Below are positions 337 to 17,387 of a stretch of DNA of 39,526 nt, one piece after another. A program made the translations under genes and the position numbers. Origin of the DNA: Planctomycetota bacterium (GTDB lineage Bacteria; Planctomycetota; UBA8108; UBA1146); NCBI GenBank assembly GCA_012960845.1, contig DUAN01000049.1, forward strand, positions 1 through 39,526. Reading direction: 5' to 3'. The notes under the pieces were generated by a model. It ran no database searches, was not told the DNA's origin, and saw only the letters and a list, made by a program, of their open reading frames with translations. Position 1 is the stretch's first letter. Each line of letters begins with the position of its first letter.

Positions 337-2232
337 ATGTATCTCACGAAAGCAGTCTTCAAGGTGCGCGCGTTGACGTGGATCATTGTCGCTCTGGTAC
401 TCTCAAATTCTGTGTTCGCTGGTGGAGGGCAATCGCTCAACATCAGTAGCTCCAGTACACAAGGCCTGGCTCCGGCAACTCTGTCGATATCGCTCGATTC
501 GACCGATCCGACCGAAGGCTTTGTCATCGCTGTCGCATACGACGACTCGATGGCAGCAGTTACAGACCTGTCGACTGCTGGAACAGCAACAGAGAGCGCA
601 AGTGCCGAGCTGATAGTTCCGGAAATCCTTTCCGGTGGATTTACGTTAGGCGTCGTCGTTGACTCTGACCCCCCATTTGACGGCCATGCGATCCCTGCGG
701 GGACTGGCCAATCTCTCGCCATGGTGACCGTCACCCCGATGGCGATCGTCTCGGTAGAGACCGACATTGATTTTTCATTCTCTGACAACACCCTCAACAA
801 CCCACCGCTGTCGAACATTCTCGTTCAGGGTGGATTGTCTGTGGGAGCCGGCGCTGGACTGGGACTCAACGGGGGCACATTGACCCTTCTGGTTCCTCCT
901 CCAGCCACGATGAGAATCGAGGATGGTTCGGCAACCGCGGATGGTACCGGTTCCACTGGTGATGCCCGAATCTTGCTCGACAACAGCCTGGGCGGTGTTC
1001 AGGGTTACGTGACCGCGATCACTCACGATCCAACCATGATCACCCTCGAGGGGATTTCCACTGGTGCCGACGCGAGTGCTGCCGGTGCTGAGTTCGAGAT
1101 CTCGAATACATATCCCAACGGCGGAACTTACGGAGTAGTCCTCGATTTTCAGTCGCCCTTCGATGGGCAGACGATTCCCGAGGGAAATGACACTCACATC
1201 GCCACCTACACGTACTCTTGCAACAATGCAAATATTTACGTCGAAGGTGAGCCGACCCCTGCCAGTGAGTCCAGTGCTTTGACACTCAGTGACGGAACGC
1301 TTGGATCTCCGACCCTCGACAATGTGATCGTGGTCAACGGACTTTCGGTGGCGCCGTTACACGAAAATGGCACATTCACCTGCGATCCGATCGCCTATCC
1401 CGCCGAAGACACCATCCTCTGGATGGAAACTGCCTTCGACGAGGGCGCCGGGAACTACGCCTACCACGGCCAGACCGGTGACCTGTGCTTCTACTACTCT
1501 GACGAAGACGATTACATCCAGGGTTTCACCTTCACCGTCTGTTACGACTGTAACCTGACGATTCACGAGGACTCCTGGGAGTTCAACGGCTCGATCCTCG
1601 ATCAGGTCGGTGTCGAGTACACCGCCGTTCAGGTCGATGACGATCCCGACGACGGAGACGGTTGCGAGTTGATCGTGGCACTTCTGCTCGACGCTCTGCC
1701 GCCCTTCGAGGGCCAGACCTTGCCCCAGACGATGGCCACCTCCGGTGACGGAGCGGATGGACGTCTGTTGATCGGTAAGATGCGCGTCACCGTCGATATG
1801 GATGCCGAGTGCAACGAAGATCAACTGATCGAGTGGTGCAACGACATCAACGGTAATGGCGACGTGACACTCTACAACAACGTGGTCATCGACTTCGATT
1901 CGCTCCAGATCTACGAGCGCAACGACACCCTGGTGCACGTTGTTCCCGAGGAGATCTTCCAGCGTGGTGATTGCAACAGTGACGACAAGGTCGACCTGGC
2001 TGACTCCGCAACGATGCTTGCGAACCAGTTCAACGGTCTTCCGATCCTGTGTCCTGACGCTTGCGACGCCAACGACGACGGCTACCTGAACATGGCGGAC
2101 TCTGTCTACCTGCTCAACTGGTTGTTCAAGTTCGGGGATGTTCCGACGGCACCAGGCCCGTTCAACGATGGTCCAGATGCGACCACCGACGACACGTTGC
2201 CTGTTTGTGATAGTGACGATACAAATTGCTAA
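337..2232 (+). CDS. Secreted cohesin-like/dockerin-like protein, type A, three modules
   Basis: A 631-residue exported protein. A basic N-terminus and hydrophobic core end in SNSVFA-GG, giving signal peptidase cleavage near residue 28. Three beta-rich modules follow at about 29-188, 189-350 and 356-540. The first two share GVVxDxxxPFxG(Q/H)xIP; the third has EDTILWMET, GDLCFYYSDED and DALPPFEGQTLPQ. A dockerin-like tail from about 542 has two Ca-binding loops (DCNSDDKVDLAD and DANDDGYLNMAD). The chain ends in CDSDDTNC. The start has a strong GGGAGGAG ribosome site. Upstream lie a promoter-like element and a CRP-type palindrome; the type B gene at 2280 follows after 47 bases, probably in one transcript. 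No catalytic domain was recognised. A structural or adhesive surface role is inference; Pfam assignment is by eye. Confidence 0.85.
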   Translation: MYLTKAVFKVRALTWIIVALVLSNSVFAGGGQSLNISSSSTQGLAPATLSISLDSTDPTEGFVIAVAYDDSMAAVTDLSTAGTATESASAELIVPEILSGGFTLGVVVDSDPPFDGHAIPAGTGQSLAMVTVTPMAIVSVETDIDFSFSDNTLNNPPLSNILVQGGLSVGAGAGLGLNGGTLTLLVPPPATMRIEDGSATADGTGSTGDARILLDNSLGGVQGYVTAITHDPTMITLEGISTGADASAAGAEFEISNTYPNGGTYGVVLDFQSPFDGQTIPEGNDTHIATYTYSCNNANIYVEGEPTPASESSALTLSDGTLGSPTLDNVIVVNGLSVAPLHENGTFTCDPIAYPAEDTILWMETAFDEGAGNYAYHGQTGDLCFYYSDEDDYIQGFTFTVCYDCNLTIHEDSWEFNGSILDQVGVEYTAVQVDDDPDDGDGCELIVALLLDALPPFEGQTLPQTMATSGDGADGRLLIGKMRVTVDMDAECNEDQLIEWCNDINGNGDVTLYNNVVIDFDSLQIYERNDTLVHVVPEEIFQRGDCNSDDKVDLADSATMLANQFNGLPILCPDACDANDDGYLNMADSVYLLNWLFKFGDVPTAPGPFNDGPDATTDDTLPVCDSDDTNC

Positions 2233-2279
2233 ACCATATTATTAGTAAGTGGATGTTGGAATACCTGGAGGGATTCGAC

Positions 2280-3071
2280 ATGAGAAAATTATTTCAAACG
2301 ATGGCGCTGCTCCTTGTGGTTATCACCGCAAACTTTGCAGTCGCACAAGATTACGTAATGACGATTTCGAGTGGAACCATGAATGTTGGTGGGAGTGGTG
2401 ACTTATCCATCACTCTCGACAATAATGGCGGAAATGTGCAAGGCTGGTCCTATGGAGCCTGCAATGACACTGCCATGCTCACCTGCACAGGTGCGGCCGA
2501 TGGATCCACCACGGCCACCGTGAAGAATGGCGACCCGCCTGACTTCAACCAGATCTCCGTTTTTGACGAGGGATTTACCTGTGGTGTGGTGATCTGTTTC
2601 GTCGGGTGTGCCACCCTTGCTCCTGGAACTGGCTACGAACTGAATGTGGCCAGTTATTCCTGCACAGCTGAAGGATCCACCAGCGTGTCGTTCTGCGACA
2701 GTCTTGGATCACCAGCTGTGGCTACAGTGGTGGTGGTTGACGGAGCGTCGGTGCCGCCGGAGCAAAACTCCGGAACCGTCATGTGTCAGATTCTGGTCAC
2801 CAGTGACTGGGTCCGTGGAGATGCCAACGGTGATTCCACGGTCAACATTGGCGACGGAATCTGGATCATCAGTGAGTTGTTTTTGGGCGGGGCTGCGAGT
2901 TCGTGTGCCGTTGCTCGGGATGCCAATGATGATGGAAATGTGGATGCTGCGGATGCAGTACACATCTTCAGTTACCGCTTCCTCAACGGACCGATGCCTT
3001 CGGCTCCTTTCCCCGGTTGTGGGCAAGTCTCGGGCCAGACTCCTGAAGACTGTGAAGGATCCGGCTGCTAG
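2280..3071 (+). CDS. Secreted cohesin-like/dockerin-like protein, type B, single module
   Basis: A 263-residue exported protein, the shortest in the array. The open frame runs back to 2226, but ATG 2280 is chosen because GGAGG (2267-2271) lies nine bases upstream and it opens directly into a signal peptide (cleavage near NFAVA-QD, residue 22). One type B module (about 23-172) contains QGWSYGACND, CGVVICFVGCATL and FCDSLGSPAV, with several cysteines suggesting disulfides. A dockerin-like tail from about 178 has loops DANGDSTVNIGD and DANDDGNVDAAD, then a Cys-rich end (TPEDCEGSGC). Other type B members have two modules, so this one lacks the second. It pairs with the type A gene at 337 and is followed by a strong terminator hairpin. 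Confidence 0.85.
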   Translation: MRKLFQTMALLLVVITANFAVAQDYVMTISSGTMNVGGSGDLSITLDNNGGNVQGWSYGACNDTAMLTCTGAADGSTTATVKNGDPPDFNQISVFDEGFTCGVVICFVGCATLAPGTGYELNVASYSCTAEGSTSVSFCDSLGSPAVATVVVVDGASVPPEQNSGTVMCQILVTSDWVRGDANGDSTVNIGDGIWIISELFLGGAASSCAVARDANDDGNVDAADAVHIFSYRFLNGPMPSAPFPGCGQVSGQTPEDCEGSGC

Positions 3072-3106
3072 AGATTCTTGATGTAGTCAAAATTTGAGCC
3101 ACTAGA

Positions 3107-3144
3107 AGCCATCTTGTCGTACTGACGACAGGGTGGCTTTTTTT
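3107..3144 (+). terminator. Rho-independent terminator after the first A-B pair
   Basis: AGCCATCTTGTCGT pairs with GACGACAGGGTGGCT across a short loop, with some G-U pairs, and a run of seven T follows. It lies 36 bases after the stop at 3071. Confidence 0.85.
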
Positions 3145-3167
3145 CATCTTCCTCGGTGGGCTCCAAT

Positions 3168-3263
3168 CGTCAGAGCCCTCTACCGTCAGAGCCCTCTACC
3201 GTCAGAGCCCTCTACCGTCAGAGCCCTCAATCGTCAGATCCCTTTACCGTCAGACCCCTCAAA
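3168..3263. repeat. Six tandem 16-bp repeats in the intergenic gap
   Basis: The unit CGTCAGAGCCCTCTAC occurs six times without spacers (starts 3168, 3184, 3200, 3216, 3232, 3248). The first three are identical; the last three carry a few substitutions. It lies just after the terminator at 3107. An 86-codon open frame through it is a translation of the repeat rather than a gene. Confidence 0.95.
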
Positions 3264-3888
3264 TTTTCATGAGTCCGGTTTCTTGAAAAAGAAATTGCCA
3301 GTTCGCCCTTGTCAAATCCACTCAAAAGCGGGTGTGGTCGAGTGGTGGATTGGGGATAAAGGACCATTATTAAACAGGTTAAGGTCGCGGTAGTGGGGGG
3401 GATGGGAGCGTCTTTTCGCTGCTTGTTTCACTCCTGCAGTCGAAAATAAGTCAATTGTGAAGACCGATAAATGCGTCTATCGTTAGAGATGTGCAGGAAA
3501 GACAGTTCAGTCACGAGGAAGAGTGTTGGTCACGCTGGGGTGGATTCGTCACCCGCAAGCGGGACCGATAATCCGAGAGATTTGAGTGGTCCTTGCGAAG
3601 AACAGCGCCTAGAAGCCAACGGGTAACCAGGCCTTATTTTTGAACAGTGTGGTGTGGGAGTGGGTGTGTGGAGGAGATGTGGAAATGTTGGGCCGAATTT
3701 ATCGGCACTTACATTCCAACGCTTCTAATCGGTTGCGATCCCGAGAGTTCGGGATCGTTGGGCTGAGTAAATAACAATTTGGACTTTTGAAGAAATGGTC
3801 AGTTCGCTGATTTCTCGATCGCTTCGAATCTGAAGCGGAGACGGAATTGGCAAGTGGCCTCATGAAATTCCTTGAGGAGGGAAACTCG
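3264..3888 (+). other. Long non-coding leader region before the second type A gene
   Basis: No believable gene on either strand. Together with the upstream repeats it forms an 817-base gap, the longest in the array. Short complementary segments are visible: GGGTG/CACCC (3538-3554) and CCCGC/GCGGG (3552-3563), which share CCC and could be mutually exclusive. A larger palindrome is listed separately. I could not match any known riboswitch. Confidence 0.4.
3736..3757. promoter_or_regulatory. Nine-bp inverted repeat, operator or leader hairpin
   Basis: CGATCCCGA-GAGT-TCGGGATCG is a perfect 9-bp inverted repeat with a four-base spacer, 132 bases before the ATG at 3889. No T-tract follows, so an operator or leader hairpin is more likely than a terminator. 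Confidence 0.5.
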
Positions 3889-5748
3889 ATGACAATTTTC
3901 AAGTTACCGAAAGCAATTCTAGTCACCCTGGTTTGCGTGGCCAGCCTTGGTGTGGTCCATGCTGATAACTGCTTCACCGTTACCGGTGGGGGTCAATCGG
4001 TGCAAGGATTGGGCAGTGCTACATTCGGGGTCGAGATGACCAACGACCAAGAAGTCGAAGGCTTCGTCGTGGCCATCAGTTACGACAACTCGGCCGTGGC
4101 CATCACCGATCTGTCAATTGTTGGAACCGTCACGGAGAGCTCCGGGGCTGAACTGGTGGTTCCAGAGATCCTCGGAAGTGGCTTCACGCTGGGAGTGGTT
4201 CTGGATGCTGCGGCACCCTTCGGTGGTCAAACGATTGCTGTCGGTTCGAACCAGAGTATCGCCAATTTCACTGCGCAGTCAGTCGTCGTTCTGAGCCAGG
4301 GAGACCCCGTGGTGACCACCGGCTTCGATTTTGTCGATGGTGCGTTTAACTCCCCGGCGCTCGACAACATCATGGTTCAAAATGGCCAAGCAGTCGGAGC
4401 GAACAATGGTCTGTGCCTCAATGGGGCCACCACAGCGATGAGTATCGGAGCCCCTCCACCGGCGACTCTGACCATCGAGGACACCACCGCCGATGCGAAC
4501 GGCAATGGATCGGTGAGAGTGCTGCTGGAGAATTCAGGGGAGACCCAGGGCTTTGTCCTCTCGATCACCCACGTGGAGACCGAGATCGCTCTCGGATCTA
4601 TCGACCTCAGCGGATCGGCAACCGACGCTGCTGGCGCGGAGTTCACCGCGATCAATACCTACAGCAACGGGGGCACCGTGGGAGTGGTCCTCGACTTCGT
4701 GGCGCCCTTCGACGGGCAAACGATCGCTGCGGGTGTAGACACTCACATTGCCAACTTCAATTACTCTGATACCGTTGAGATCTACATCGAAGGGGATCCG
4801 ATTCCTGCGGACCAGGTCGCCAATCTCACCTTCGACGATGGGGCGTTCGGAACCCCTCCACTCAACAACATCGTGGTCTCGGGTGGTCTTTCCATAGTGC
4901 CCGATGTGGTGAATGGTGCCTTCACGACTCCACCATCAGCGGTTCCTTCAGAGGATACAGTGCTCTGGATGGAAACTGACTTTCCCGATTCGATGGGGTA
5001 TGCCGGAGAAACGGGTGCCCTTTGCTTCTACTACGCTGATCCGACCGACAACATCCAGGGTATGACGATGACCGCTTGTTTCAACTGCGACGCAACTGTG
5101 GATCCACTCTGGAGTTGGGGCGGTTCCATCGTTGAAGCAGTAGGAGTCGAATACCTTGCGGTTCAGACTGACAACTCGGATACCGATGGAGATGGGTGTG
5201 AACTGGTAGTGGCCATCCTGCTGGATGCCTTGCCGCCCTTCGATGGACAGACTCTTCCGCAGACTGGGGTTCTTGACCGTTTGCTGATCGGTTGTCTCCC
5301 GGTCACCATCTCCGAAACCGCTGCTTGTGAGGATATTCTCGAGTTCAACTGGTGCAACGACATCAACGGAACCGGAAGCGTCAACCTCTACAACAACGTT
5401 GTCATCAACTTCCAGTCGATTCAGGAGTATGAGCGAGACGACACCGTCATCGTGGTGAAATCGGCTAAGTCATTCAAGCGTGGCGATTGCAACGACGACG
5501 ACAAGACAGACCTCGCGGATGCGGCCGCGATGCTGGCCAATCAGTTCGGAAGCTATGATGTCAACTGTTCCGATGCCTGCGACACCAACGACGATGGCCT
5601 GTTGAACATGGCAGATCCCGTGTTTCTGCTGAACTGGCTCTTCAATTTTGGAGACGTCCCGGCAGGTCCAGGTCCATTCGATGAGGGTGAGGATCCGACC
5701 GGTGATTCGCTGCCCGATTGTGACGGCGGCGATACGAATTGCGGATAA
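3889..5748 (+). CDS. Secreted cohesin-like/dockerin-like protein, type A, three modules
   Basis: A 619-residue exported protein, co-linear with the protein at 337. The frame is open back to a TTG at 3847, but ATG 3889 has GAGGAGG (3874-3880) in front of it and opens a signal peptide cleaved near VVHA-DN (residue 25). Cohesin-like modules lie at about 26-190, 191-350 and 353-528, with GVVLDAAAPFGGQTI, GVVLDFVAPFDGQTI and DALPPFDGQTLPQ. The dockerin-like tail from about 531 has loops DCNDDDKTDLAD and DTNDDGLLNMAD and ends CDGGDTNCG. It opens the longest unit of the array, since the next clear T-tracted terminator is at 11831. No enzyme signature was seen. Confidence 0.85.
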   Translation: MTIFKLPKAILVTLVCVASLGVVHADNCFTVTGGGQSVQGLGSATFGVEMTNDQEVEGFVVAISYDNSAVAITDLSIVGTVTESSGAELVVPEILGSGFTLGVVLDAAAPFGGQTIAVGSNQSIANFTAQSVVVLSQGDPVVTTGFDFVDGAFNSPALDNIMVQNGQAVGANNGLCLNGATTAMSIGAPPPATLTIEDTTADANGNGSVRVLLENSGETQGFVLSITHVETEIALGSIDLSGSATDAAGAEFTAINTYSNGGTVGVVLDFVAPFDGQTIAAGVDTHIANFNYSDTVEIYIEGDPIPADQVANLTFDDGAFGTPPLNNIVVSGGLSIVPDVVNGAFTTPPSAVPSEDTVLWMETDFPDSMGYAGETGALCFYYADPTDNIQGMTMTACFNCDATVDPLWSWGGSIVEAVGVEYLAVQTDNSDTDGDGCELVVAILLDALPPFDGQTLPQTGVLDRLLIGCLPVTISETAACEDILEFNWCNDINGTGSVNLYNNVVINFQSIQEYERDDTVIVVKSAKSFKRGDCNDDDKTDLADAAAMLANQFGSYDVNCSDACDTNDDGLLNMADPVFLLNWLFNFGDVPAGPGPFDEGEDPTGDSLPDCDGGDTNCG

Positions 5749-5924: not shown

Positions 5925-7268
5925 ATGAGGAGACTTGTATTTTTGTGTCTACTACTGGGTCTCTGCTGCTATTCGGTGGATGGGGTGCTTGCTGGTGGCG
6001 GTGCGACCTACAACATGAGTAGCGATGCGACTGCTGCTGGGGGGACGGTGAATCTATCTGCCACCCTCGACAACGGTGGCGGCGATATCAGCGGATGGTC
6101 CTGGGGACTTTGTCACGACGAGGCGGTGGCGACCGTGTCGAACATCGGGGATGGCGGTGGTGCTGCCAATAGCACCTCGACCGTCAGCAATGGCGACCCG
6201 GCGAGTTTTAACGAGTCATCCATCTATCCTGGCGGCTGGACGCAGGGCGTGGTGATCGATTTCATCGGTTGCTGTGTGGTTGCGAGTGGGACCACTGGAT
6301 TTCTGATGGCCACTGCGGATTACACCGTCGCTGGCGCTGTTGCACCAGGTGACTATTCTGTTGAGTACTGCGGTGGGGTCCTTGGATCACCGCCGGTTGC
6401 GAATGTCGTGGTGGTCAACGGCGGATCGGTCCCCCCTGCTGCGGAGAACTCGGGGACGATCACCGTGGTCGATGTCCCCGATCCGGAGTGGAACTACCTG
6501 GGGGGAAATTCCTCGGGCAATAACTATCCCGCTGGAGCTGGAATCGGTGGCCTCTCGGTGGCGGTTGGCTTCTCCATCCAGGAGAAGGATAACAGTTCCC
6601 AGGGCGCAAATTTCCCCAATGAGACCCAGGGATTCTCGATGGGGTGCGGGAATGACGGGGCGCTGATCACTCCGACAGCCGTCACCACCAGCCTTGGATT
6701 CGAGCCTGATTTTGCAGAATCGAACCTCTACCCGGATGCCTGGACCCTGGGAGTGGTGTATTCATTCGCCGGTTCCCAGACCGCCTTCTTCGACGTCGCC
6801 ACCGAGGTGATTTCTGTTGAATATGACGGGACTTCGACGGCCCTCGCCGGGGTCGAGGGTGCCACGACGACACCTTTGGTGTGGAACAATTCCACCGGCA
6901 GTCCGCCGGTTTCGAACGTGGTGGTCTTTGGGGGTGGAAGTTATGCGCCCAATTTCACCGATGGGTCGATCGAATTCGTCGGCACCGTGACCAACGCTTT
7001 TCAGCGTGGCGATTCAAATGATGACGGCGTGATCAACATTGCAGACATCATCTGGATGCTATCCGAGATGTTCGGGGGTGGGGCTGTCACCGATTGTGCC
7101 ATCGCGGATGATTCAAATGCGGACGGATTGAACGATGCTGCAGATGCCGTGTACACCGCAACCTATATTTTTCTCAGTGGTCCTGCACCTGCAGCACCAT
7201 TTGGAAGTTGCGGTAGCGGAGCCGAGCAGACGCCTGCGGATTGCGTGAGTTTTAACAGTTGTCCTTGA
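5925..7268 (+). CDS. Secreted cohesin-like/dockerin-like protein, type B, two modules
   Basis: A 447-residue exported protein. The frame is open from 5820, but ATG 5925 begins the signal peptide (cleavage near GVLA-GG, residue 23) and has a modest GAAGAG site upstream. Two type B modules (about 24-185 and 186-355) carry SGWSWGLCHD, GVVIDFIGCCV and GSPPVANVVVVNGGSV, then TQGFSMGCGND and GSPPVSNVVVFGGGS. The dockerin-like tail (from about 360) has loops DSNDDGVINIAD and DSNADGLNDAAD and ends in a Cys motif (TPADC...NSCP). It is the most diverged type B member in module one. Spacing to the next gene is 118 bases with no terminator, so co-transcription is likely. Confidence 0.85.
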   Translation: MRRLVFLCLLLGLCCYSVDGVLAGGGATYNMSSDATAAGGTVNLSATLDNGGGDISGWSWGLCHDEAVATVSNIGDGGGAANSTSTVSNGDPASFNESSIYPGGWTQGVVIDFIGCCVVASGTTGFLMATADYTVAGAVAPGDYSVEYCGGVLGSPPVANVVVVNGGSVPPAAENSGTITVVDVPDPEWNYLGGNSSGNNYPAGAGIGGLSVAVGFSIQEKDNSSQGANFPNETQGFSMGCGNDGALITPTAVTTSLGFEPDFAESNLYPDAWTLGVVYSFAGSQTAFFDVATEVISVEYDGTSTALAGVEGATTTPLVWNNSTGSPPVSNVVVFGGGSYAPNFTDGSIEFVGTVTNAFQRGDSNDDGVINIADIIWMLSEMFGGGAVTDCAIADDSNADGLNDAADAVYTATYIFLSGPAPAAPFGSCGSGAEQTPADCVSFNSCP

Positions 7269-7386: not shown

Positions 7387-8787
7387 ATGCGAGTTATTGA
7401 ACAGAGGAGTGTGCCCAACATTATTGCAGTTTGTTTCGCAATGGTGCTGAGTAGTTCGGTCTCCTTGGCGGGAGGCACGGGTGCATCCTTCACTGCCGAG
7501 AGCGTATCTGCGCCTTCGACAGGTGGAAGTGCAGTCCGGGTGCTGGTCGATAGTTCAGCGGATGTCCAGGGATTCGTGATCTCGATGTCCCATGATCCGG
7601 CAGCGATTACCCTCAGTGGAGTGGATATCACTGGAACGGACACCGAACTGTCGGGTGCAGAATTTGTGGTTCCTGCTGTCTACGCAGATGGCGGGACCAT
7701 CGGAGTCGTACTCGATTTCAATGCGCCATATGATGGTCAGGTGATTCCTGCGAGCGCAGAGATTCATGCGGCGAATTACAATTACAATTGTAATAGTGCT
7801 GTGCTGTATTTCGAAGGGGACCCAGTTCCTCCGTCGGAGACCACGGCACTGACCTTCATCGATGGCATATATGGGTCTCCGGCTCTTTCCAACGTTTCCG
7901 TTTCCGGCGGATTGTCAGTCTGGCCAGCTTTCAATGATGGAACTTTCACCTGTGATCCAGTGGCCATTCCATCCGAGGATACGATTCTCTGGATGGAGAC
8001 TGAGTTTGACAACTCCGAGGGTAATGCGGCATTCCATGGCCAGACAGGGTCGCTCTGTTTCTACTATGCGGACGCGGATGACAACATCCAGGGAATGACG
8101 ATGACGGGCTGCTATGACTGCGATCTGACCGTGGGATCCGATTGGGATTGGAACGGATCGATCGTTGAGGAGATTGGCGTCGAGTATCTCGCTGTCCAGA
8201 TCGACGATGATGCTTCGGACGGCGACGGCTGTGAACTGGTCGTGGCATTCCTGCTCGATGCGCTGCCTCCATTTGAAGGTCAAACGATGCCGCAGACTGC
8301 CGATCTCAATGCGGGTCGGCTGCTGATCGGATGTTTGTCAGTGACTGTCGATGACAGCGCAGAGTGCGATGTCGCCCAGGAAATCAACTGGTGCAACGGG
8401 ATCAACGGTACCGGCTCGGTCAACCTCTACAACAACGTGGTCATCGAGTTCCAGTCGATCCAGATCTACGAGCGGAATGACACCTCGGTCATGGTGGTGC
8501 CGGAAGAGATCTTCCAGCGCGGCGACTGCAACAGTGATGACCAGACGGATCTGGCGGATGCCGCCTCGATTTTGGCCAATCAGTTCGGTAACTATGAGAT
8601 CTTGTGTTCCGATGCCTGTGATACCAATGATGATGGTCTGTTGAACATGGCTGATTCAGTCTTCCTGCTCAACTGGCTCTTCAAGTTCGGGATCAGCCCA
8701 GCGGCTCCAGGCCCTTACAGTGACGGAGCGGATCCGACCGATGATTCTCTGCCTGTTTGCGACAGTGACGACACAAATTGTGGGTAG
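7387..8787 (+). CDS. Secreted cohesin-like/dockerin-like protein, type A, two modules
   Basis: A 466-residue exported protein with signal cleavage near VSLA-GG (residue 28) and a GGAGAAAG ribosome site. It lacks the first module of the other type A proteins: after the signal it goes directly into the equivalent of module two (about 29-195; GVVLDFNAPYDGQVIP) and then module three (about 196-375; EDTILWMET, GSLCFYYADAD, DALPPFEGQTMPQ). The dockerin-like tail starts near 378 (loops DCNSDDQTDLAD and DTNDDGLLNMAD) and ends CDSDDTNCG. Its third module and tail are closest by eye to the protein at 337. Confidence 0.85.
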   Translation: MRVIEQRSVPNIIAVCFAMVLSSSVSLAGGTGASFTAESVSAPSTGGSAVRVLVDSSADVQGFVISMSHDPAAITLSGVDITGTDTELSGAEFVVPAVYADGGTIGVVLDFNAPYDGQVIPASAEIHAANYNYNCNSAVLYFEGDPVPPSETTALTFIDGIYGSPALSNVSVSGGLSVWPAFNDGTFTCDPVAIPSEDTILWMETEFDNSEGNAAFHGQTGSLCFYYADADDNIQGMTMTGCYDCDLTVGSDWDWNGSIVEEIGVEYLAVQIDDDASDGDGCELVVAFLLDALPPFEGQTMPQTADLNAGRLLIGCLSVTVDDSAECDVAQEINWCNGINGTGSVNLYNNVVIEFQSIQIYERNDTSVMVVPEEIFQRGDCNSDDQTDLADAASILANQFGNYEILCSDACDTNDDGLLNMADSVFLLNWLFKFGISPAAPGPYSDGADPTDDSLPVCDSDDTNCG

Positions 8788-8930: not shown

Positions 8931-10223
8931 ATGCGACATCTTCTTGTGACATCGTTTCTGATGGTGTTGGTGCTGATGACAACCGGCGTATTCGCGCAGG
9001 ATTATGTCCTCACCGTCTCCAATGGCAGCATTCCCAATAACGGTAGCGGAGACCTCACGGTCAATCTCGACAACAATGGTGGAGAGTTGCAGGGATGGTC
9101 CTATGGAGCCTGCAATGACACCGCCTTCCTCACCTGTACCGGTGTGGTGAACGGATCGACCGTGGCCACAGTGAATGATGGCGGTACCCCCGACTTCAAC
9201 CAGATGGCCGTTTTTGACGAGGGATTCACTGCGGGTGTCGTGATCTGCTTCATCGGCTGCGCCACCTTGACAAACGGAACCGGATACGAGTTGAACATCG
9301 CCACATATGACTGCACCGCTGAGGGGAGCACCTCCGTCTCCTTCTGCGACACCCTGGGTTCACCTGCGGTGGCCACGGTGGTGGTGGTCGATGGCGCTTC
9401 GATCGTTCCGGTGCAGAACTCAGGTGATGTCGAGTGCATCGGTGTCCCCGATCCGGAGTACACCTACGCCGCTGGAAACGCCTCTGCCGGCTACAACCCG
9501 GCGGATGGTAACGCCTCCACTTCAGTCGATATCACCATCGCCGAGACCGACAACAGCGGATTGGGCGCACCTTTCCCCAACGATACCCAGGGCTTCTCGA
9601 TGGGGCTGGGCAACAGTTCCGAGGTGGTCGCCACCGCAGTGAACCTGACGTTACCTTTCGAGGCGGACTTTGGCGAGACCAGCATCTACCCCGAAGGGTG
9701 GACTGCAGGAGTGGTTTACAGCTTCACTGGTGGCGCGGTGCTGGCGTTCCCTTCAGCGACGACGGTGATCTCGGTCGACTACGAGACTGGCGGCAGCATG
9801 GCGGGCAATGAAGACGGCGCGATCGCTTCACTGACCTGGGATGACGGCCTCGGTTCTCCAGCAGTGGCCAATGTCGTGGTGGTCGGTGGTGGGTCGCTGA
9901 CTGCGGCCCAGTCCAACGGGAGCATCGCTCTCAACCCAGTGGTCACCAGCGACTGGATCCGCGGAGATGCCAATAGCGATAGTGTGGTCAATATTGGCGA
10001 CGTGATCTGGATGATCTCGGAGTTGTTCACCGGAGGAGCCGCGAGTAGTTGCAGCATCTCCAGTGATGCCAATGATGATGGGTCGCATGATCTCGGGGAT
10101 CCGTCCTATGTCATCCAGTACCGTTTCATCGGTGGACCGATGCCGGTCGCTCCTTTCCCTGGTTGTGGTCAAGTCGATGGGCAAACACCGGAAGATTGTG
10201 AAGGATCGTCCTGCTCTGGTTAG
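8931..10223 (+). CDS. Secreted cohesin-like/dockerin-like protein, type B, two modules (duplicate 1)
   Basis: A 430-residue exported protein with signal cleavage near GVFA-QD (residue 22); AAAGGTGG precedes the ATG. Module a (about 23-170) has QGWSYGACND, GVVICFIGCATL and FCDTLGSPAV; module b (about 173-335) has TQGFSMGLGN, GVVYSFTGG and GSPAVANVVVVGGGS. The dockerin-like tail begins near 342 (loops DANSDSVVNIGD and DANDDGSHDLGD) and ends TPEDCEGSSCSG. It is a recent duplicate of the next gene: both module regions are nearly identical in DNA, whereas the signal peptide and dockerin-like part differ more. The second Ca loop (SHDLGD) looks less canonical than in its relatives. Confidence 0.85.
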   Translation: MRHLLVTSFLMVLVLMTTGVFAQDYVLTVSNGSIPNNGSGDLTVNLDNNGGELQGWSYGACNDTAFLTCTGVVNGSTVATVNDGGTPDFNQMAVFDEGFTAGVVICFIGCATLTNGTGYELNIATYDCTAEGSTSVSFCDTLGSPAVATVVVVDGASIVPVQNSGDVECIGVPDPEYTYAAGNASAGYNPADGNASTSVDITIAETDNSGLGAPFPNDTQGFSMGLGNSSEVVATAVNLTLPFEADFGETSIYPEGWTAGVVYSFTGGAVLAFPSATTVISVDYETGGSMAGNEDGAIASLTWDDGLGSPAVANVVVVGGGSLTAAQSNGSIALNPVVTSDWIRGDANSDSVVNIGDVIWMISELFTGGAASSCSISSDANDDGSHDLGDPSYVIQYRFIGGPMPVAPFPGCGQVDGQTPEDCEGSSCSG

Positions 10224-10501: not shown

Positions 10502-11776
10502 ATGAGAAATCTTTTAGTAACAGCATTCCTGTTGGTCGCGACCACCGTTTCTGCGCAGGATTATGTCCTCAGCATCTCCAGTGGCAGCATTCCAAATAAC
10601 GGTAGCGGAGACCTCACGGTCACTCTTGACAACAACGGTGGAGAGATGCAGGGCTGGTCCTTCGGAGCTTGCAATGACACCGCCTTCCTCACCTGTACCG
10701 GTGTGGCGGACGGATCGACCGTGGCCACCGTGAATGATGGAGATACCCCCGACTTCAACCAGAGTTCCGTCTTTGACGATGGATTCACTGTTGGTGTCGT
10801 GATCTGCTTCATCGGGTGCGCCACCTTGTCAAACGGTACCGGATACGAGTTGAACATCGCCACATATGACTGCACCGCTGAGGGGAGCACTTCCGTCTCC
10901 TTCTGCGACACCCTGGGTTCACCCGCGGTCGACACGGTGGTGGTGGTCGATGGCGCTTCCCTCGTTCCGGTGCAGAACTCCGGTGATGTCGAGTGCATCG
11001 GTGTCCCCGATCCGGAGTACACCTACGGTGCTGGAAACGCCTCTGCCGGCTATAACCCGGCGGATGGTAACGCCTCCACTTCAGTCGATATCACCATCTC
11101 CGAGACCGACAACAGCGGATTGGGCGCACCTTTCCCCAACGATACCCAGGGCTTCTCGATGGGGCTGGGCAACAGTTCCGAGGTGGTCGCCACCGCAGTG
11201 AACCTGACGTTACCTTTCGAGGCGGACTTTGGCGAGAGCAACATCTTCCCCGAGGGGTGGACCGTCGGAGTGGTTTACAGCTTCACTGGTGGCGAGGTGC
11301 TGGCGTTCCCTTCAGCGACGACGGTGATCTCGGTCGACTACGAGACTGGTGGCAGCATGGCGGGCAATGAAGACGGCGCGATCGCTTCACTGACCTGGGA
11401 TGACGGCCTCGGTTCTCCAGCAGTGGTCAATGTCGTGGTGGTCGGTGGTGGGTCGCTGACTGCTGCCCAGTCCAACGGGAGCATCACCCTCAATCCGGTG
11501 GTGACCATCGATTGGCTCCGGGGAGATGCCAACGGTGACTCCCAGGTGAATGTCGCCGATGCGATCTGGATCATCAGCGAGTTGTTCGTTTCTGGACCCG
11601 CCAGTAGCTGCGCGATTGCGCGCGATGCCAATGGAGACAGCAAGTACGACATCGCAGACCCGACCTACATCGTCCAGTATCGCTTCATCAGTGGCCCGAT
11701 GCCTTCTGCTCCTTTCCCCGATTGTGGACAGGTCGATGGCCAAACTCCTGAAGATTGCTCCGCTTCCGGCTGCTAA
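10502..11776 (+). CDS. Secreted cohesin-like/dockerin-like protein, type B, two modules (duplicate 2)
   Basis: A 424-residue exported protein with signal cleavage near TVSA-QD (residue 18) and a GAAAGAGAG site before the ATG. Module a (19-168) and module b (169-330) are almost the same as in the gene at 8931, including an unbroken identical stretch (11100-11237 against 9541-9678). The dockerin-like tail (from about 338; loops DANGDSQVNVAD and DANGDSKYDIAD) is clearly different from its duplicate and ends TPEDCSASGC. The pattern suggests duplication followed by conversion of the module part or faster change in the tail. A terminator follows 55 bases downstream. Confidence 0.85.
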   Translation: MRNLLVTAFLLVATTVSAQDYVLSISSGSIPNNGSGDLTVTLDNNGGEMQGWSFGACNDTAFLTCTGVADGSTVATVNDGDTPDFNQSSVFDDGFTVGVVICFIGCATLSNGTGYELNIATYDCTAEGSTSVSFCDTLGSPAVDTVVVVDGASLVPVQNSGDVECIGVPDPEYTYGAGNASAGYNPADGNASTSVDITISETDNSGLGAPFPNDTQGFSMGLGNSSEVVATAVNLTLPFEADFGESNIFPEGWTVGVVYSFTGGEVLAFPSATTVISVDYETGGSMAGNEDGAIASLTWDDGLGSPAVVNVVVVGGGSLTAAQSNGSITLNPVVTIDWLRGDANGDSQVNVADAIWIISELFVSGPASSCAIARDANGDSKYDIADPTYIVQYRFISGPMPSAPFPDCGQVDGQTPEDCSASGC

Positions 11777-11867: not shown

Positions 11868-11868
11868 A

Positions 11869-12143
11869 TGGTGGATCCGGTGGTTCGAGGGAAGGGAAAG
11901 AGATCGATCCCTCTCGAGGGCATGGGAGCGGTTCTTTACAAACTGCTTGTCATGAAAAAAAGGGTCCAAGATAGGTGCAATTTCATGGCTGCACCGAGGT
12001 CGATTGCCCCTTACGATGACATCTTGGATCTGCAGGAGGGTCCACTCTCGGGTCTTGAGTTGCTGAACCGGGTGATGGCTTCACTTGAAGGTGTGACCCT
12101 GGAATTCCCGGAGTATCAAATCAAGACCAGAGGTGCTGTCTGA
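11869..12143 (+). CDS. Possible small unknown protein, about 91 residues
   Basis: An open frame fills most of the gap between the terminator at 11831 and the gene at 12250. Its second half looks protein-like by codon choice (GC-rich third positions; acidic segment PYDDILDLQEGPLSGLELL). Against it: the first ATG abuts the terminator T-tract, no good ribosome site is visible at that or the internal ATGs, and no family is recognised. The frame also continues upstream out of frame inside the preceding gene. It could be a gene remnant or chance. Confidence 0.25.
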
Positions 12144-12200
12144 ATCATCCTATCGGCCCACGAGTGTGGCGTTCGTGATGGAGAATAGAGTCTCAATAGA

Positions 12201-12222
12201 GTGGCCAGGGGACCATGGCCAC
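12201..12222. promoter_or_regulatory. Seven-bp inverted repeat just upstream of the gene at 12250
   Basis: GTGGCCA and TGGCCAC are perfect inverted copies separated by eight bases. The element ends 27 bases before the ATG and just upstream of the ribosome site (GAAGAGAAGGA, 12231-12241). Operator or leader hairpin; which one cannot be told from sequence alone. Confidence 0.4.
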
Positions 12223-12249
12223 CAACACTAGAAGAGAAGGAACCCGCCC

Positions 12250-13542
12250 ATGTACAAGTTGATCTGCCTGTTCACGACGATCTTGCTGATGACCACCAGT
12301 CCGCTGGGGGCACAGGATTTTATCCTCTACGTCTCCGGACCGGCAACCGCCACCCTGGGAGAGTCATTTGATCAATCCACGATGCTCGATGTCAATCAGG
12401 ATGTCCAGGGTTGGTCCTTCGGAGCCTGCCACGACTCGACCCTGATGACTCTCGACACGGTAGCGGATGGTGCGGCCACCGAGATCGTCAACAATGGGGA
12501 TACGCCCGATTTCAATCAGGTCAATGTGCTCGCCGATGGTTTCACCGTGGGAGTCGTGATCTGTTTCGTCGGGTGTGCAGTGCTCGAGGCTGGGACCGGT
12601 TATGAGATCCATGTTGCGAGCTACACCGCGGATGCGGAAGGCGTCTCTGCCACCGATTTCTGCGACACCCTGGGTGCACCTCCCGTGGAAACGGTGATCG
12701 TGGTCAACGGGGCGTCAGTGGCCCCGGAGCAAATCTCGGGTTCGGTCGAGATTCTCGCAACTCCCCCGGTTCCAGATCCAGAGTTCATCTTTAGCGCCGC
12801 GACGGAGACCATCAATTACGATGGGAACTCGGGATCCGCCTCGTTCAGCGTCTCGGTCCAGATTTCAGAAACGGATAACAGTGCCAGCGGAGCAGATTTC
12901 CCCAATCAAACGCAGGGCTTCTCGATGGGAATGGCCAACGATCCCGCGGTGATGGAGTGCACCGGTGCGGATGTCTCTCTTCCCTTTGATGCAGACTTTG
13001 CTGAGGGGGGAGTCTCAGCAGGAGGCTGGACGATGGGTGTGGTCTTCAGTTTCGCCGGTGGGGTGACCTTGGCCTTCACCGAGCCCCTCGATGTGGCAGT
13101 GGCCGATTATTCGACGGTGGCCGGCGCCCTGTCGGGGACGGGCACCACCGAGACCGCATTGACCTGGTCGGAAGACCTTGGATCTCCTCCGGTGGCCAAT
13201 ATTGTGGTGGTCAATGGATCTTCACTGACTCCCGAGAAGGTCGATGGATCCATCACCTTCCAGCCGGTTTTCGACCAGCCGTTCCTACGAGGCAACTGTA
13301 ACGGGAATAGCGGCGTCGACATTTCGGACGGGATCTGGATGCTTCAGGAACTCCACCTGGGAGGTCCCAGCGGAACCTGCGCCGAGGCTTGTGACGCCAA
13401 CGGCGACAGTGTCTACGATATAGCGGATCCCATGTACGTGATTTACTACCGCTTGCTCGATGGCCCGGCTCCGACCTCCCCATTCCCCGATTGTGGGGTT
13501 GAGGTCGGTTCCGATTGTGATGCCACCAACTACTGTCCATAG
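12250..13542 (+). CDS. Secreted cohesin-like/dockerin-like protein, type B, two modules
   Basis: A 430-residue exported protein with signal cleavage near SPLGA-QD (residue 21) and an AGAAGAGAAGGA ribosome site. Module a (about 22-172) carries QGWSFGACHD, GVVICFVGCAVL and FCDTLGAPPV; module b (about 175-340) carries TQGFSMGMAND, GVVFSFAGG and GSPPVANIVVVNGSS. The dockerin-like tail starts near 347 (loops NCNGNSGVDISD and DANGDSVYDIAD), with the first loop using Asn at its first position, and ends in DCDATNYCP. It is bounded by terminators on both sides, so it is probably transcribed alone. Confidence 0.85.
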   Translation: MYKLICLFTTILLMTTSPLGAQDFILYVSGPATATLGESFDQSTMLDVNQDVQGWSFGACHDSTLMTLDTVADGAATEIVNNGDTPDFNQVNVLADGFTVGVVICFVGCAVLEAGTGYEIHVASYTADAEGVSATDFCDTLGAPPVETVIVVNGASVAPEQISGSVEILATPPVPDPEFIFSAATETINYDGNSGSASFSVSVQISETDNSASGADFPNQTQGFSMGMANDPAVMECTGADVSLPFDADFAEGGVSAGGWTMGVVFSFAGGVTLAFTEPLDVAVADYSTVAGALSGTGTTETALTWSEDLGSPPVANIVVVNGSSLTPEKVDGSITFQPVFDQPFLRGNCNGNSGVDISDGIWMLQELHLGGPSGTCAEACDANGDSVYDIADPMYVIYYRLLDGPAPTSPFPDCGVEVGSDCDATNYCP

Positions 13543-13593
13543 ATCAGTCATCGATCGTCGGTAGATTTGTTTCCTGCCCCCCTGTCGATCCTG

Positions 13594-13630
13594 AAGCGGG
13601 CCCGAAGCCAGTAGGCTTCGGGCCCGCTTT
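13594..13630. terminator. Long perfect hairpin terminator after the gene at 12250
   Basis: AAGCGGGCCCGAAGCC and GGCTTCGGGCCCGCTT are perfect inverted repeats of 16 bases around AGTA, 51 bases after the stop. Only a short T-run follows on the + strand. Confidence 0.8.
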
Positions 13631-14198
13631 GTATCTCCATCTTCCTGTCCTCCTCCTCTTCTGCTGACCCCCAGCATCGTCAGCCGGCAATTCCAATCGA
13701 GACTTCGCCGAATTGTTGGCGGACCGCCGTGGTGTGGGTCGGTGCTGTGGGTCCGTGGTGAAGGAAGTAATGCTTGCCGGAATACGGCACTTGTTGCCGG
13801 AAATCACGGTGATTCTGGTGAGCCGTCTTCGTCACGAGTGGTGCGCTAGTCTGCAGCGCCTCTTTGTTAACTCTTTTGTATATAGACATGTTTGACAATG
13901 AGTGATACGGTCGAGACTCGAAGACAGGAGTCCCGACACGACTCCCCAGCAGATCCGGGTTCACGCCTGGTCAGTTCTACCTCTTCCTAGCGCCACATAA
14001 CCGGCAATTGTTGTCGGGTAGATACTGGATTCGGTTCTCCCCTGGACCGGCTCCTGGGTCTTCCTGACTTGTTTACTACATTTTTTGTTAATCCCCATTT
14101 TATCGGAGTCATTCCGAGAAGTCAGGGTCCGGGTAGGAAGGCCCCCCTTGACCGATTGGAATTTCCGAAGTGTCCCCTGGAGACGAGGAGAGAAAGTG
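13631..14198 (+). other. Non-coding gap before the type A gene at 14199
   Basis: I see no supported gene. Short open frames on both strands here lack ribosome sites and recognisable protein character. The segment 14065-14110 is AT-rich and could hold the promoter for 14199, but no element pair with proper spacing stands out. Confidence 0.4.
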
Positions 14199-16031
14199 AT
14201 GAACCGGAGTCTTATGCGCCTTCGCAGCGCACTTCTCGCGGTACTTTTTGCCGCGATCGGCACCCATGCCTTCGCTCAGAATTCACTGACCATCACCGAT
14301 GGTCAATCGGCAGGACTCGCATCCGAGACATTAAGCGTTCTGATGGACGCTGATGCATCGGTTGAGGGATTTGTTCTTGCCATAACCTTCGACAACGGAC
14401 TGTTGTCGGTAACCAATGTCGTTGCAGGATCTGCGACGACTGCAGCTTCTGCAGAGTTAGTCGTGCCGGAAACTCTTCCCGGTGGATTCACTCTCGGTGT
14501 TGTTGTGGATGCCAGTGCGCCTTTCGACGGCCAGGAAATTCCTGCCGGGTTGGGCCAGGAGATTGCAGCATTCACACTGACTCCTCAGACCATCGTGACC
14601 ACGGACACCCAGAGTGCCCTTGAGTTCTCTGACGGTGTTCTGAACAACCCGCCCTTGTCCAACCTGCTGGTGCAGAATGGGCAAAGCATTGGTGCCGCCA
14701 ATGGCCTCGGGCTCAACAACGGCACCATGACGCTTCTTCCGCCTCCACCCGACAGCATGCGTATCGAGTCGATTGAGTTCGATTCCGATTCCAGTGGTGC
14801 TGCGCGTGTCCTTCTTTCAAACTCCAGCGGAGCTGTCCAGGGATACGTCCTGGCGGTGGCTCATGACTCGGCTCTCGTGTCCCTTCAGGGGATCACGCTG
14901 GGTGCAGAGACTCTCGCTGCAGGTGCTGAACTGGTGGTTCCGGAGTTGTACTCCAACGGAGGAACTCTGGGAGTGGTGCTCGATTTCGAGAGCCCGTTCG
15001 AGGGTCAGAGCATCGCAACCGGTGCTGACAACCACATCGCCAGTTTCACCTACTCGTCCAATCAGGTCATCGAAAACCCTGATCAGCCCATCACGACCGC
15101 CATCGAACTGGTCAATGGCCAGCTGGGCAGCCCCGCGCTCGATAACGTGATCGTCGTTGCAGGACTGTCGATCAGTCCCGCTCTCGAGGACGGAACCTTG
15201 ACGTTGCTGGATATCGTCATTCCAGTCAACGATACGGCGTTCTACATCGGGCAGCGCGATTTCCCGGAGACCGGCACCAATGGTGGCCTCGGCTTCCCCG
15301 GCCAGGAGATCGAGTTTTGCTTCTTTTACAGTGATCCTAACGACAACATCCAGGGTATTCAGATGGCCGTCTGCTACGACGACCTTCTTCTGATCGACGG
15401 TACTTTCACCATCGAAGGTTCCATCGCTGACGAGCTGGGTGCTGAATTCGTCAACTACCAGATCGATAATGACGACAATGACGGCGATGGCCGTGAGTTG
15501 GTCGCCGGTATCCTGATGGACGCTCTTCCACCCTTCGAGAACCAGCAGCTGCCTTCAACGAGCGAGCCGCTGATGATCGCATGTGTGCAGGCTGAAGTTG
15601 ACGCTGGAGCCGCCTGTGGTGATTCCTTCACCATCGATTTCTGCGACGGAATCAACGGTAACGGCATGGTCCCGATCAACAACCTGGTTGTTATCGAGTA
15701 CCAGTCGATCCAGTCGTTCGAGCGTTACGGTGCGACCTACGAGATCATTCCAGTCCCCGCCTTCCAGCGTGGTGACTGCAACACGGATACCAAGGTCGAC
15801 CTGGCGGATGCCGCCACCGTGATCGCCAGTCAGTTCCAGGGCTACGGGGTCGGCTGCCTCGACGCCTGTGACGCCAATGACGACTCCGTGATCAACCTTG
15901 CGGACTCAGTCTTCTTGCTCAATTTCTTGTTCAAGTTCGGGCCTCCGACACCAGCGCCAGGCGCTTACACGCCGGGTGCCGATCCCACTGAGGACGACCT
16001 TGACTGTGCTTTGCCGGCCTCGTGTAACTAA
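14199..16031 (+). CDS. Secreted cohesin-like/dockerin-like protein, type A, three modules
   Basis: A 610-residue exported protein. The frame is open from 14085, but ATG 14199 has GAGGAGAGAAA just upstream and begins the signal peptide (cleavage near HAFA-QN, residue 26). Modules lie at about 27-182, 183-340 and 343-520, with GVVVDASAPFDGQEIP, GVVLDFESPFEGQSI and DALPPFENQQLP. In module three the usual EDTILWMET is replaced by NDTAFYIGQRD, so it is the most diverged type A member. The dockerin-like tail (from about 523) has loops DCNTDTKVDLAD and DANDDSVINLAD and ends DCALPASCN. The type B gene at 16080 follows after 48 bases with no terminator, again forming an A-B pair. Confidence 0.85.
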   Translation: MNRSLMRLRSALLAVLFAAIGTHAFAQNSLTITDGQSAGLASETLSVLMDADASVEGFVLAITFDNGLLSVTNVVAGSATTAASAELVVPETLPGGFTLGVVVDASAPFDGQEIPAGLGQEIAAFTLTPQTIVTTDTQSALEFSDGVLNNPPLSNLLVQNGQSIGAANGLGLNNGTMTLLPPPPDSMRIESIEFDSDSSGAARVLLSNSSGAVQGYVLAVAHDSALVSLQGITLGAETLAAGAELVVPELYSNGGTLGVVLDFESPFEGQSIATGADNHIASFTYSSNQVIENPDQPITTAIELVNGQLGSPALDNVIVVAGLSISPALEDGTLTLLDIVIPVNDTAFYIGQRDFPETGTNGGLGFPGQEIEFCFFYSDPNDNIQGIQMAVCYDDLLLIDGTFTIEGSIADELGAEFVNYQIDNDDNDGDGRELVAGILMDALPPFENQQLPSTSEPLMIACVQAEVDAGAACGDSFTIDFCDGINGNGMVPINNLVVIEYQSIQSFERYGATYEIIPVPAFQRGDCNTDTKVDLADAATVIASQFQGYGVGCLDACDANDDSVINLADSVFLLNFLFKFGPPTPAPGAYTPGADPTEDDLDCALPASCN

Positions 16032-16079
16032 CCCCGAATCAGGAACCCAAAGAATAAGGACTTCCTTCAGGAAGTGAGT

Positions 16080-17387
16080 ATGAAAATGAAAAGTACAAAA
16101 ATCGCTTTCACCCTTGCCTTAGCGCTCCTGCTCGGAGCCCCGGCATTCGCGCAATACGATCTGTCGCTGAGCAGCGCAGCAGGAGCACCAGGCTCCAGCG
16201 CCGATCTGCAGGTCTTGCTAGACAACAATGGAGACCCAATCCAGGGTTGGTCCTTCGGAGTCTGTCATGACGGTCTGGCGCTCAGCCTGACGGCCGTCAT
16301 CGATGGAGCTACCACTTCGACCGTGAAGAATGGAGAAGATCCAGACTTCAACCAGGTCAACGTGGTCTCTGACCAGGGCTTCACCGTTGGAGTCGTGATC
16401 TGTTTCGTCGGTTGCGCAACGCTGCCGACAGGTACTACAGGTAACGAGTTGAATATCGCTTCCTACGAGTTACTCGGCGAAGCCGGTTCTTCCACGAGTG
16501 TTGACTTCTGCAACACTCTCGGAAACCCAGCAGTTGAGATCCTCGTGGTGGTTGGTGGACAATCAATTCTGCCCTCGACCAGTTCCGGAACCATCGAGAT
16601 GGTTGCAGGACCACCTCCCTTCGACTTCGCAGTCGCCGACCAAACCATCTCCTACGATGGTCTCAGTGGAGAAGCTACCTTCACGGTGACTCCGACCATT
16701 CAAGAGAATCCGGATAACTCCGGTTTCCCCAGCGAGACCCAAGGTGTCTCGATGGGAATGGCACATGATTCCTCCTTGTTGACCGCCAACTCGGTCGCCT
16801 GGAACATGGATACTGGAATCGATCCGGACTTCGCGGAAGGGAACGCCTATGACGGCGGATGGACCATTGGAGTGGTTTACAGTTTCACCGGTCAAGCGAC
16901 CTTGACTTTCGAGACAGCCACACCGGTTCTGCTCGTCGAATACAGCACTGTCGCTTCGGCACTTGCTGGACTCGAGACCGACACGATGACAGCATTGGCC
17001 TGGTCGAATGAGCTTGGATCCCCCCCGGTTGTGAACATTGTGGTAGTGGGTGGAGGAAGCGTCGATCCGTCTTTGACTGACGGTTCGGTGACTCTGAGCC
17101 CCTCCTACGCTCCGCCTGACCTTCCATTCGTCCGTAGTGACTGCAATGGAGATCAGGTCGTGAATATTGCTGACGGAATCTGGATCCTCAACGAGATGTT
17201 CCAGGGCGGACCTGCCGGCACTTGTGCCGAGGCTTGTGACGCCAACTCCGACGACCTAGTCGACACTGCGGATGCGATCTTTTTGATCAGCTACCGGTTG
17301 CTCAGCGGCCCGATGCCCAGCGCTCCATTCCCGGAGTGCGGTACCGAAGAAGGAGCGGACTGCGAATCTGCCTCAAACTGCCCCTAA
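16080..17387 (+). CDS. Secreted cohesin-like/dockerin-like protein, type B, two modules
   Basis: A 435-residue exported protein. A GTG at 16074 is in frame, but ATG 16080 has AGGAAG (16068-16073) at the right distance. Signal cleavage falls near PAFA-QY (residue 24). Module a (about 25-175) has QGWSFGVCHD, GVVICFVGCATL and FCNTLGNPAV; module b (about 178-345) has TQGVSMGMAHD, GVVYSFTGQ and GSPPVVNIVVVGGGS. The dockerin-like tail (from about 350) has loops DCNGDQVVNIAD and DANSDDLVDTAD and ends DCESASNCP. It closes the array and is followed by a strong terminator. Confidence 0.85.
   Translation: MKMKSTKIAFTLALALLLGAPAFAQYDLSLSSAAGAPGSSADLQVLLDNNGDPIQGWSFGVCHDGLALSLTAVIDGATTSTVKNGEDPDFNQVNVVSDQGFTVGVVICFVGCATLPTGTTGNELNIASYELLGEAGSSTSVDFCNTLGNPAVEILVVVGGQSILPSTSSGTIEMVAGPPPFDFAVADQTISYDGLSGEATFTVTPTIQENPDNSGFPSETQGVSMGMAHDSSLLTANSVAWNMDTGIDPDFAEGNAYDGGWTIGVVYSFTGQATLTFETATPVLLVEYSTVASALAGLETDTMTALAWSNELGSPPVVNIVVVGGGSVDPSLTDGSVTLSPSYAPPDLPFVRSDCNGDQVVNIADGIWILNEMFQGGPAGTCAEACDANSDDLVDTADAIFLISYRLLSGPMPSAPFPECGTEEGADCESASNCP

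Follow-up and report, generated by a model that had tools for sequence, protein, structure and literature searches.

A conserved array of cohesin- and dockerin-like secreted proteins, candidate adaptor scaffoldins of a non-cellulosomal display system in a Planctomycetota bacterium

In a 39,526-nucleotide stretch of Planctomycetota DNA (contig DUAN01000049.1 of assembly GCA_012960845.1, positions 1 to 39,526 of the forward strand; hereafter, the window), ten open reading frames (ORFs) at positions 337-17387 of the + strand form a tandem array of cohesin- and dockerin-like proteins, directly followed by an eleventh gene, here called X. An all-against-all BLASTP of the ten proteins and two alignments separated them into two architectures, 4 A and 6 B, arranged as A B A B A B B B A B. 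Identities were 44-64% in the best local alignments of the four A proteins and about 40-85% among the six B proteins (BLASTP), and both groups displayed conserved cysteines in their alignments. With start codons of our own choice, a home-made rule recognized a signal-peptide-like start in all ten, so that the array of ten secreted proteins described by a previous sequence-only reading is confirmed. The genes are as follows.

A1, 337..2232, + strand, 631 amino acids (aa): signal peptide, cohesin-like modules at residues 33-190 and 191-352, divergent third module at 353-540, dockerin-like tail at 541-625 (from alignments and profile comparison; module 1 modelled)
B1, 2280..3071, + strand, 263 aa: signal peptide, single cohesin-like module at 24-166, dockerin-like tail at 175-263
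A2, 3889..5748, + strand, 619 aa: architecture as A1, two cohesin-like modules and a divergent third
B2, 5925..7268, + strand, 447 aa: two cohesin-like modules and tail
A3, 7387..8787, + strand, 466 aa: A type lacking module 1, with one cohesin-like module and the divergent A module
B3, 8931..10223, + strand, 430 aa: two cohesin-like modules and tail
B4, 10502..11776, + strand, 424 aa: two cohesin-like modules and tail; 85% identity to B3, a later duplicate
B5, 12250..13542, + strand, 430 aa: two cohesin-like modules and a tail whose first Ca loop is degenerate
A4, 14196..16031, + strand, 611 aa: two cohesin-like modules and a divergent third; A of an A-B-X core, orthologues across genera
B6, 16074..17387, + strand, 437 aa: two cohesin-like modules and tail; B member of the A-B-X core
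X, 17731..22761, + strand, 1676 aa: probable lipoprotein with Big_5, FG-GAP, TIG and a dockerin-like tail, weakly cohesin-like near 625-775, 1124-1263 and 1264-1415

Pfam detected no enzyme or carbohydrate-binding domain among the ten array proteins, as the sequence-only reading had stated, and apart from Dockerin_1 returned only matches below cut-off. NCBIfam, run on five of the ten and on X, gave nothing notable except a choice-of-anchor Z repeat in X that narrowly exceeded its cut-off.

Profile comparison revealed that the first and second modules of both architectures (Am1, Am2, Bm1, Bm2) are mutually homologous, and deeper alignments added the divergent A module to this family (E 1.3e-12 against Am1). 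AlphaFold2 models were obtained for B1 from 53 sequences (predicted local distance difference test, pLDDT, 90.4; predicted template modelling score, pTM, 0.65) and for A1 from 36 sequences (pLDDT 82.9, pTM 0.51). The best 50 Foldseek matches of the B1 model were all, by title, cohesins or cohesin-bearing scaffoldin complexes, and VIA-align superposed it on the cohesin fold with a Z of 17.6 and a root-mean-square deviation (rmsd) of 1.9 over 134 aligned residues. By title, 48 of the best 50 VIA-align rows were again of this kind, one further row being a protein-protein interaction module of GH84 and the last a CLIPPER adhesin domain (Z 11.5). Module 1 of the A1 model likewise aligned with the cohesin fold (Z 18.2, rmsd 1.7, 139 residues), cohesins or cohesin-bearing scaffoldin complexes filling its first 43 rows. 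Sequence searches of the PDB returned no cohesin, neither for the B profile (best match a dockerin, E 0.0061) nor for the A profile (matches to an unrelated type VI effector, E 0.025, and to a dockerin, E 0.081); cohesin identity was therefore reached by fold and not by PDB sequence. The cohesin-like assignment made previously is thus upheld by the fold of the models and weakly by sequence: A1 module 1 and the B1 module are predicted to adopt the cohesin fold, to which the remaining modules are attached by homology. A resemblance of the whole A1 chain to integrins, top-ranked in Foldseek, was read as chance, given its strung beta-sandwiches and query-normalised TM scores of just 0.13-0.21.

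The third A module of the A1 model found its best alignment in the pilin EbpB (Z 10.9, rmsd 3.0). This would fit modules acting as outward adhesin domains fixed to the cell by the tail, with the array as an adhesin repertoire, as would the FG-GAP, lectin, PKD and HYR domains found among the other tail-bearing proteins described below, and the available part of PMC10066038 proposes non-cellulosomal dockerins as adhesins in Omnitrophota. We consider this explanation very improbable, A1 module 1 and the B1 module matching cohesins far better (Z 17-18).

A dockerin-like C-terminal tail is present on all ten array proteins, and a D-x-N-x-D motif occupies both loops in nine of them; in B5 the first loop is degenerate, with N at both D positions, so that the paired Ca loops previously ascribed to every member hold with this exception. 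In the tail of the B1 model, helices were predicted at residues 190-201, 210-213 and 223-234; the rows of the structure searches with B1 and A1 were filled by the cohesin part. Among the ten proteins, Dockerin_1 (PF00404) exceeded its cut-off in B1 alone. The same family also exceeded its cut-off in X, was below it or absent in the other array proteins, matched 46/53 B and 21/36 A relatives at E<=0.1, and reached 99 matches genome-wide at E<=1.

These tails extend far beyond the array. A profile built from the eleven tails of this contig gave at least 145 matches in the genome at E<=0.01, a lower bound that includes those eleven, which match by construction, and that derives from 150 of 187 candidates scored. 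Outside the contig, 94 stretches of the same genome were examined (the four weakest of 134 outside matches being omitted), revealing 127 ORFs with 129 tails, located at most 60 residues from the ORF end in 119/127. A signal-peptide-like start was recognized in 105 of the 114 tail ORFs with an uncut 5' end (13 cut ORFs being omitted), by a rule that accepted 3/73 interior segments and 3/13 other genes, including that of the membrane protein YidC. Loop positions were strongly kept in these other tails, with D 120/127, N 114/128, D 110/128 and last D 129/129 in loop 1, and D 125/128, N 108/128, D 113/128 and last D 128/128 in loop 2, the strict D-x-N-x-D motif occupying both loops in 79/129. Three cysteines and a Pro-rich C-terminal extension were also kept (C 93/127, C 108/110), such a Cys- and Pro-rich extension not being known as part of classical dockerins. 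In addition, 35 of the 127 ORFs carry an A/B-type module.

Residues specific to each tail class were identified. The A tails (36 family rows) display Ala at column 19 in 35/36 and Gln at column 25 in 28/36, the B tails (53 family rows) Trp at column 20 in 46/53, Glu at column 24 in 40/53 and Arg at column 58 in 39/53, and the other tails Ile or Val at column 19 in 119/129 and Leu at column 58 in 98/128, all counts being taken on related rows and the 129 other tails including those of the 35 module-bearing ORFs. These helix columns lie near the recognition positions of classical dockerins. Conservation of class-specific helix residues across the family is what would be expected if the tails have different partners, suggesting at least three partner specificities.

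The proteins ending in these tails were characterized by Pfam on 114 upstream parts (73 + 40 + 1, the last a 3856-aa part), that is, without the 13 of 127 ORFs whose tail starts before residue 120. Complete lists cover 93/114 members (53 at 1e-6, 40 at 1e-12); eight of the 20 members of the 73 outside these lists were scanned singly, and at 1e-3 the lists hold the best 25 of 60 and the best 25 of 42 families. Peptidase families S8, M9, M4 (two) and M12B were identified on tail-bearing ORFs, together with endonuclease I, an esterase, LPMO_10, a phosphatase, arylsulfotransferases and oxidoreductases (MauG and DHOR peroxidases, GSDH, and a multicopper oxidase match at 1.4e-5). Other domains included FG-GAP, P-domain, PKD, HYR, LTD, lectin and galactose-binding-like domains. 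A 3946-aa tail-bearing frame (L115:3076-14913) contains 33 HYR stretches and FG-GAP repeats. No glycoside hydrolase appeared in the complete lists (93/114 members) or in ten proteins scanned singly, in keeping with the earlier view that this is not a normal cellulosome. The two M4 peptidases (L095, 80-4540; L107, 248-5071) combine a galactose-binding-like domain, one or two B-type modules and a tail, so that a single polypeptide can here include an enzyme as well as module and tail; a third ORF (L100, 242-4654) has the same galactose-binding-like domain, B-type module and tail, with a sub-cut-off trypsin-like match. Single, scattered genes with fused enzymes, which the sequence-only reading had named as evidence against itself, are thus found in part outside the array; the array itself is conserved as such.

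Candidate sockets other than A and B were also recovered. The module profile, built like the tail profile from rows of the window that match it by construction, gave 71 matches genome-wide; 52 of them fall outside this contig and 19 within it, 18 of the latter being rows from which the profile was built. Two adjoining proteins of contig C8 (one of 1531 aa, the other of 473 aa within the stretch examined), both with He_PIG repeats, have a lipoprotein-like start and a cohesin-like module at the end, with no tail match; full-length orthologues of the 1531-aa protein occur in three related genomes (G001, G002, G004). A HYR protein on contig C145, cut on its N-terminal side by the stretch, likewise ends in a cohesin-like module without a tail. 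In X, a Gly-Cys pair occupies residues 22-23 in 7/7 aligned proteins. From these starts, X and the two He_PIG proteins are probably lipoproteins.

Gene order proved to be conserved. In 24 loci (the window and L011-L033), which share ancestry and are not independent trials, all 34 A genes with a next hit were followed by a B gene within 700 bases, five further A genes having no next hit (two at an edge, three with room). Within this window alone, the alternation is weak evidence, since 35 of the 210 orders of 4 A and 6 B genes contain no adjacent A pair by our own arithmetic; it is the pattern in relatives that makes the A-B pairing more than chance and confirms what had been proposed from one array. 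A, B and X stood in a row in 16/16 family genomes (X being partial in G005, G007 and G015), and in one of them (G002) the array was complete as A B A B A B B B A B X. In another family of the class (L132), A and B are followed by a tail protein of 2261 aa; a third (L134, L135) has A, B and two tail proteins, and three loci (L136-L138) hold A-like genes without a detected B. A second, divergent array was observed in the genome of the window (L069, G000 C78:16440-24940), comprising a tail protein, an A-like protein and three proteins with B-/A-type modules, and two related genomes (L017, L019) show a similar gene order.

Quick trees, some with long branches, gave orthologues across genera for A1-A4 and several B positions, indicating that the array is old. 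Recent tandem amplification is ruled out by these cross-genus orthologues except for B3 and B4, which are a later pair, and decay of the array is unsupported, with ratios of nonsynonymous to synonymous substitution rates (dN/dS) of 0.07-0.33 from our own counting script. In the same trees, the A/B genes of a metagenome-assembled genome labelled Bacillota (L012, L013, L024) fell among planctomycete ones, its label being probably wrong.

Across genomes, the module profile had matches in 29/29 genomes of the class (own included) and 0/30 outside, profiles derived from this family under-counting distant members and leaving unlike cohesins possible elsewhere. The tail profile gave at least 59 matches in each of the 29/29 class genomes and one match each in 3/30 outside, at most 90 and 65 candidates being scored per genome, so that these counts are lower bounds. 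Up to 780 first-look tail candidates, 90 of them scored, were seen in one class genome (G026), and tail numbers elsewhere in the class may be far higher. This joint occurrence bears on an explanation in which the tail would be a Ca-stabilised C-terminal tag for sorting or secretion, recognized by some other machinery, and the modules would be structural or ligand-binding rather than tail-binding. The C-terminal and genome-wide location of the tail, its Cys- and Pro-rich extension, and the presence of PF23759, a galactose-binding-like family named for association with the type IX secretion system (T9SS), on 4/73 and 4/40 members would all suit such a tag. We nevertheless judge it improbable, as modules and tails occur in the same 29/29 class genomes with modules in none of the 30 others, and as no Por_Secre_tail, sortase or exosortase match was found at E<=0.01 in the draft genome, which comprises 243 contigs and is about 91% complete.

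The sequence-only reading had suggested another explanation, in which A and B would be linked to one another by their tails and so build a surface layer or matrix dependent on Ca; client binding would then be minor or absent. Module and tail do occur together on all ten proteins, the A-B pairs are conserved, the class-specific, family-wide residues of A and B tails would suit mutual binding, and the conserved cysteines could add disulfides. By contrast, a related tail is carried by 127 other ORFs, several of them enzymes, most module matches (52/71) were located on other contigs, and tail-less cohesins of lipoprotein type exist; that the array forms a self-contained layer is not supported. A matrix of this kind is unlikely, if somewhat less so than a sorting tag, and the setting previously given to the array was too narrow, its interpretation being supported in part.

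We rather propose, with a probability of roughly 60%, that the array proteins serve as adaptor scaffoldins in a cohesin-dockerin display system that is non-cellulosomal and resembles the hypothetical "planctosome". The predicted fold of two modules, the anatomy of the tails, the gene order, the counts and the co-occurrence in genomes carry this proposal. Secreted A and B proteins would each offer one to three cohesin-like sockets and one dockerin-like plug, and membrane sockets, probably lipid-anchored at the outer membrane, would be provided by X and the two He_PIG lipoproteins. By tail-module binding and choice of partner, A and B may plug into these lipoprotein sockets or onto each other, and the sockets left free could take up the products of at least 127 other tail-bearing ORFs, including peptidases, a nuclease, an esterase, an LPMO_10 protein and oxidoreductases. 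Assembly would require Ca2+.

Several observations weigh against this display system. Pfam Cohesin (PF00963) had no match in the ten array proteins at E<=1, and genome-wide it gave 9 matches at E<=1 with just 1 over cut-off; the failure in the ten measures the reach of the profile and not the fold, and PF00963 matched 9/53 B and 7/36 A relatives at E<=0.1 (best 9.6e-6). Weak Dockerin_1 matches occurred in 9/14 control genomes, 2 of them over cut-off, and the limited reach of family-derived profiles, mentioned above for the 30 outside genomes, adds to this. For the cohesin-like stretches of X, the pairwise profile matches are weak (best E 8.4e-7, 0.0016 and 3.8e-4), and the genome-wide module profile lists none of these stretches. 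A scripted lipobox rule accepted 1/3 of the candidates (X and the two C8 proteins), the others being assigned by eye. Since the tails of the array have class residues of their own, it does not follow that array proteins and others use common sockets; an enzyme-family match was counted in at most 16/93 members of the complete Pfam lists, and the B1 model, with its pTM of 0.65, showed no confident docking of its own tail.

Tentatively, this may extend to cohesin-dockerin docking as the general surface display route of a whole Planctomycetota class, which we find conceivable but on balance doubtful. Its role would resemble that of sortase in Gram-positives or T9SS in Bacteroidota, with a standard Ca-dependent plug on more than 100 secreted proteins, lipid-anchored sockets, an old conserved A/B adaptor array and at least three plug classes setting the order of assembly. 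The lack of Por_Secre_tail, sortase and exosortase matches in the draft genome leaves room for such a route, whereas the T9SS-named PF23759 domains weigh against it. If the proposed display system is right, uncultured marine planctomycetes would hold much of their extracellular protein by non-covalent docking, with a bearing on how these bacteria act upon marine particles and organic matter; the hypothetical planctosome would gain a testable parts list, and new pairs of cohesins and dockerins, spanning at least three classes of tail, would become available for study and protein engineering.

Other features of the window include 16-base tandem repeats at 3168-3260, between B1 and A2 (5.8 copies), and at 36835-36899 (4.1 copies). 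In-frame tandem repeats of 12 bases (DESV) were found at 22867-22935, at the start of a RadC-like ORF, and of 15 bases (ETENR) at 28713-28804, at the end of an NrdR-like ORF. Finally, an ORF cut by the window end (38375-39526) has a match of squalene-hopene cyclase C-terminal type.

No prior description of this array was found in the literature searched, subscription journals being mostly outside that search, and the comparisons below refer to the available parts of the papers cited. Cellulosomes share with this system cohesin-fold modules, a dockerin-like tail, proteins bearing both and, probably, anchored cohesins (PMC12484212), and the tail repertoire is in the range of the 166 dockerin-bearing components of Pseudobacteroides cellulosolvens (PMC12484212). 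Unlike them, the complete Pfam lists contain one LPMO_10 and no glycoside hydrolase, which a cellulosome requires; no sortase match was found (SLH was not searched for), and the scaffoldin-like proteins are small, with one to three modules, cohesin and dockerin being also fused to peptidases. Ca. Stygibacter (Cloacimonadota) likewise combines peptidases and other secreted proteins bearing C-terminal dockerins with a non-catalytic cohesin protein, in its case one 3,755-aa scaffoldin with carbohydrate-binding modules and a conserved C-terminal attachment domain (PMC8542988), whereas here many small proteins were found and no Por_Secre_tail match. Dockerins are frequent in huge Planctomycetota proteins (PMC11573180), as in the 3946-aa tail-bearing frame reported here; the array, the cohesin partners and the tail classes are undescribed in the accessible text of that paper. 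One PVC member is reported with a two-cohesin scaffoldin (PMC11557425).

The closest counterpart is the planctosome, a hypothetical system of freshwater Nemodlikiaceae drawn with one anchoring protein of 2,210 aa and one adaptor protein, in which M12B/M14 peptidases and P-domain, HYR and lamin-tail proteins are tied by cohesin-dockerin modules (PMC6461901), an idea repeated in PMC11840708. Both systems occur in Planctomycetes and associate cohesin and dockerin modules without sign of cellulose breakdown, and the M12B, P-domain, HYR and lamin-tail proteins of the planctosome occur here among tail-bearing proteins, with a HYR protein ending in a cohesin-like module; M14 peptidases are absent among the matches listed here. 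By contrast with the single adaptor drawn in the available text, the present system comprises ten adaptor-type genes in a conserved array together with X, at least 145 tail matches and anchors of lipoprotein type.

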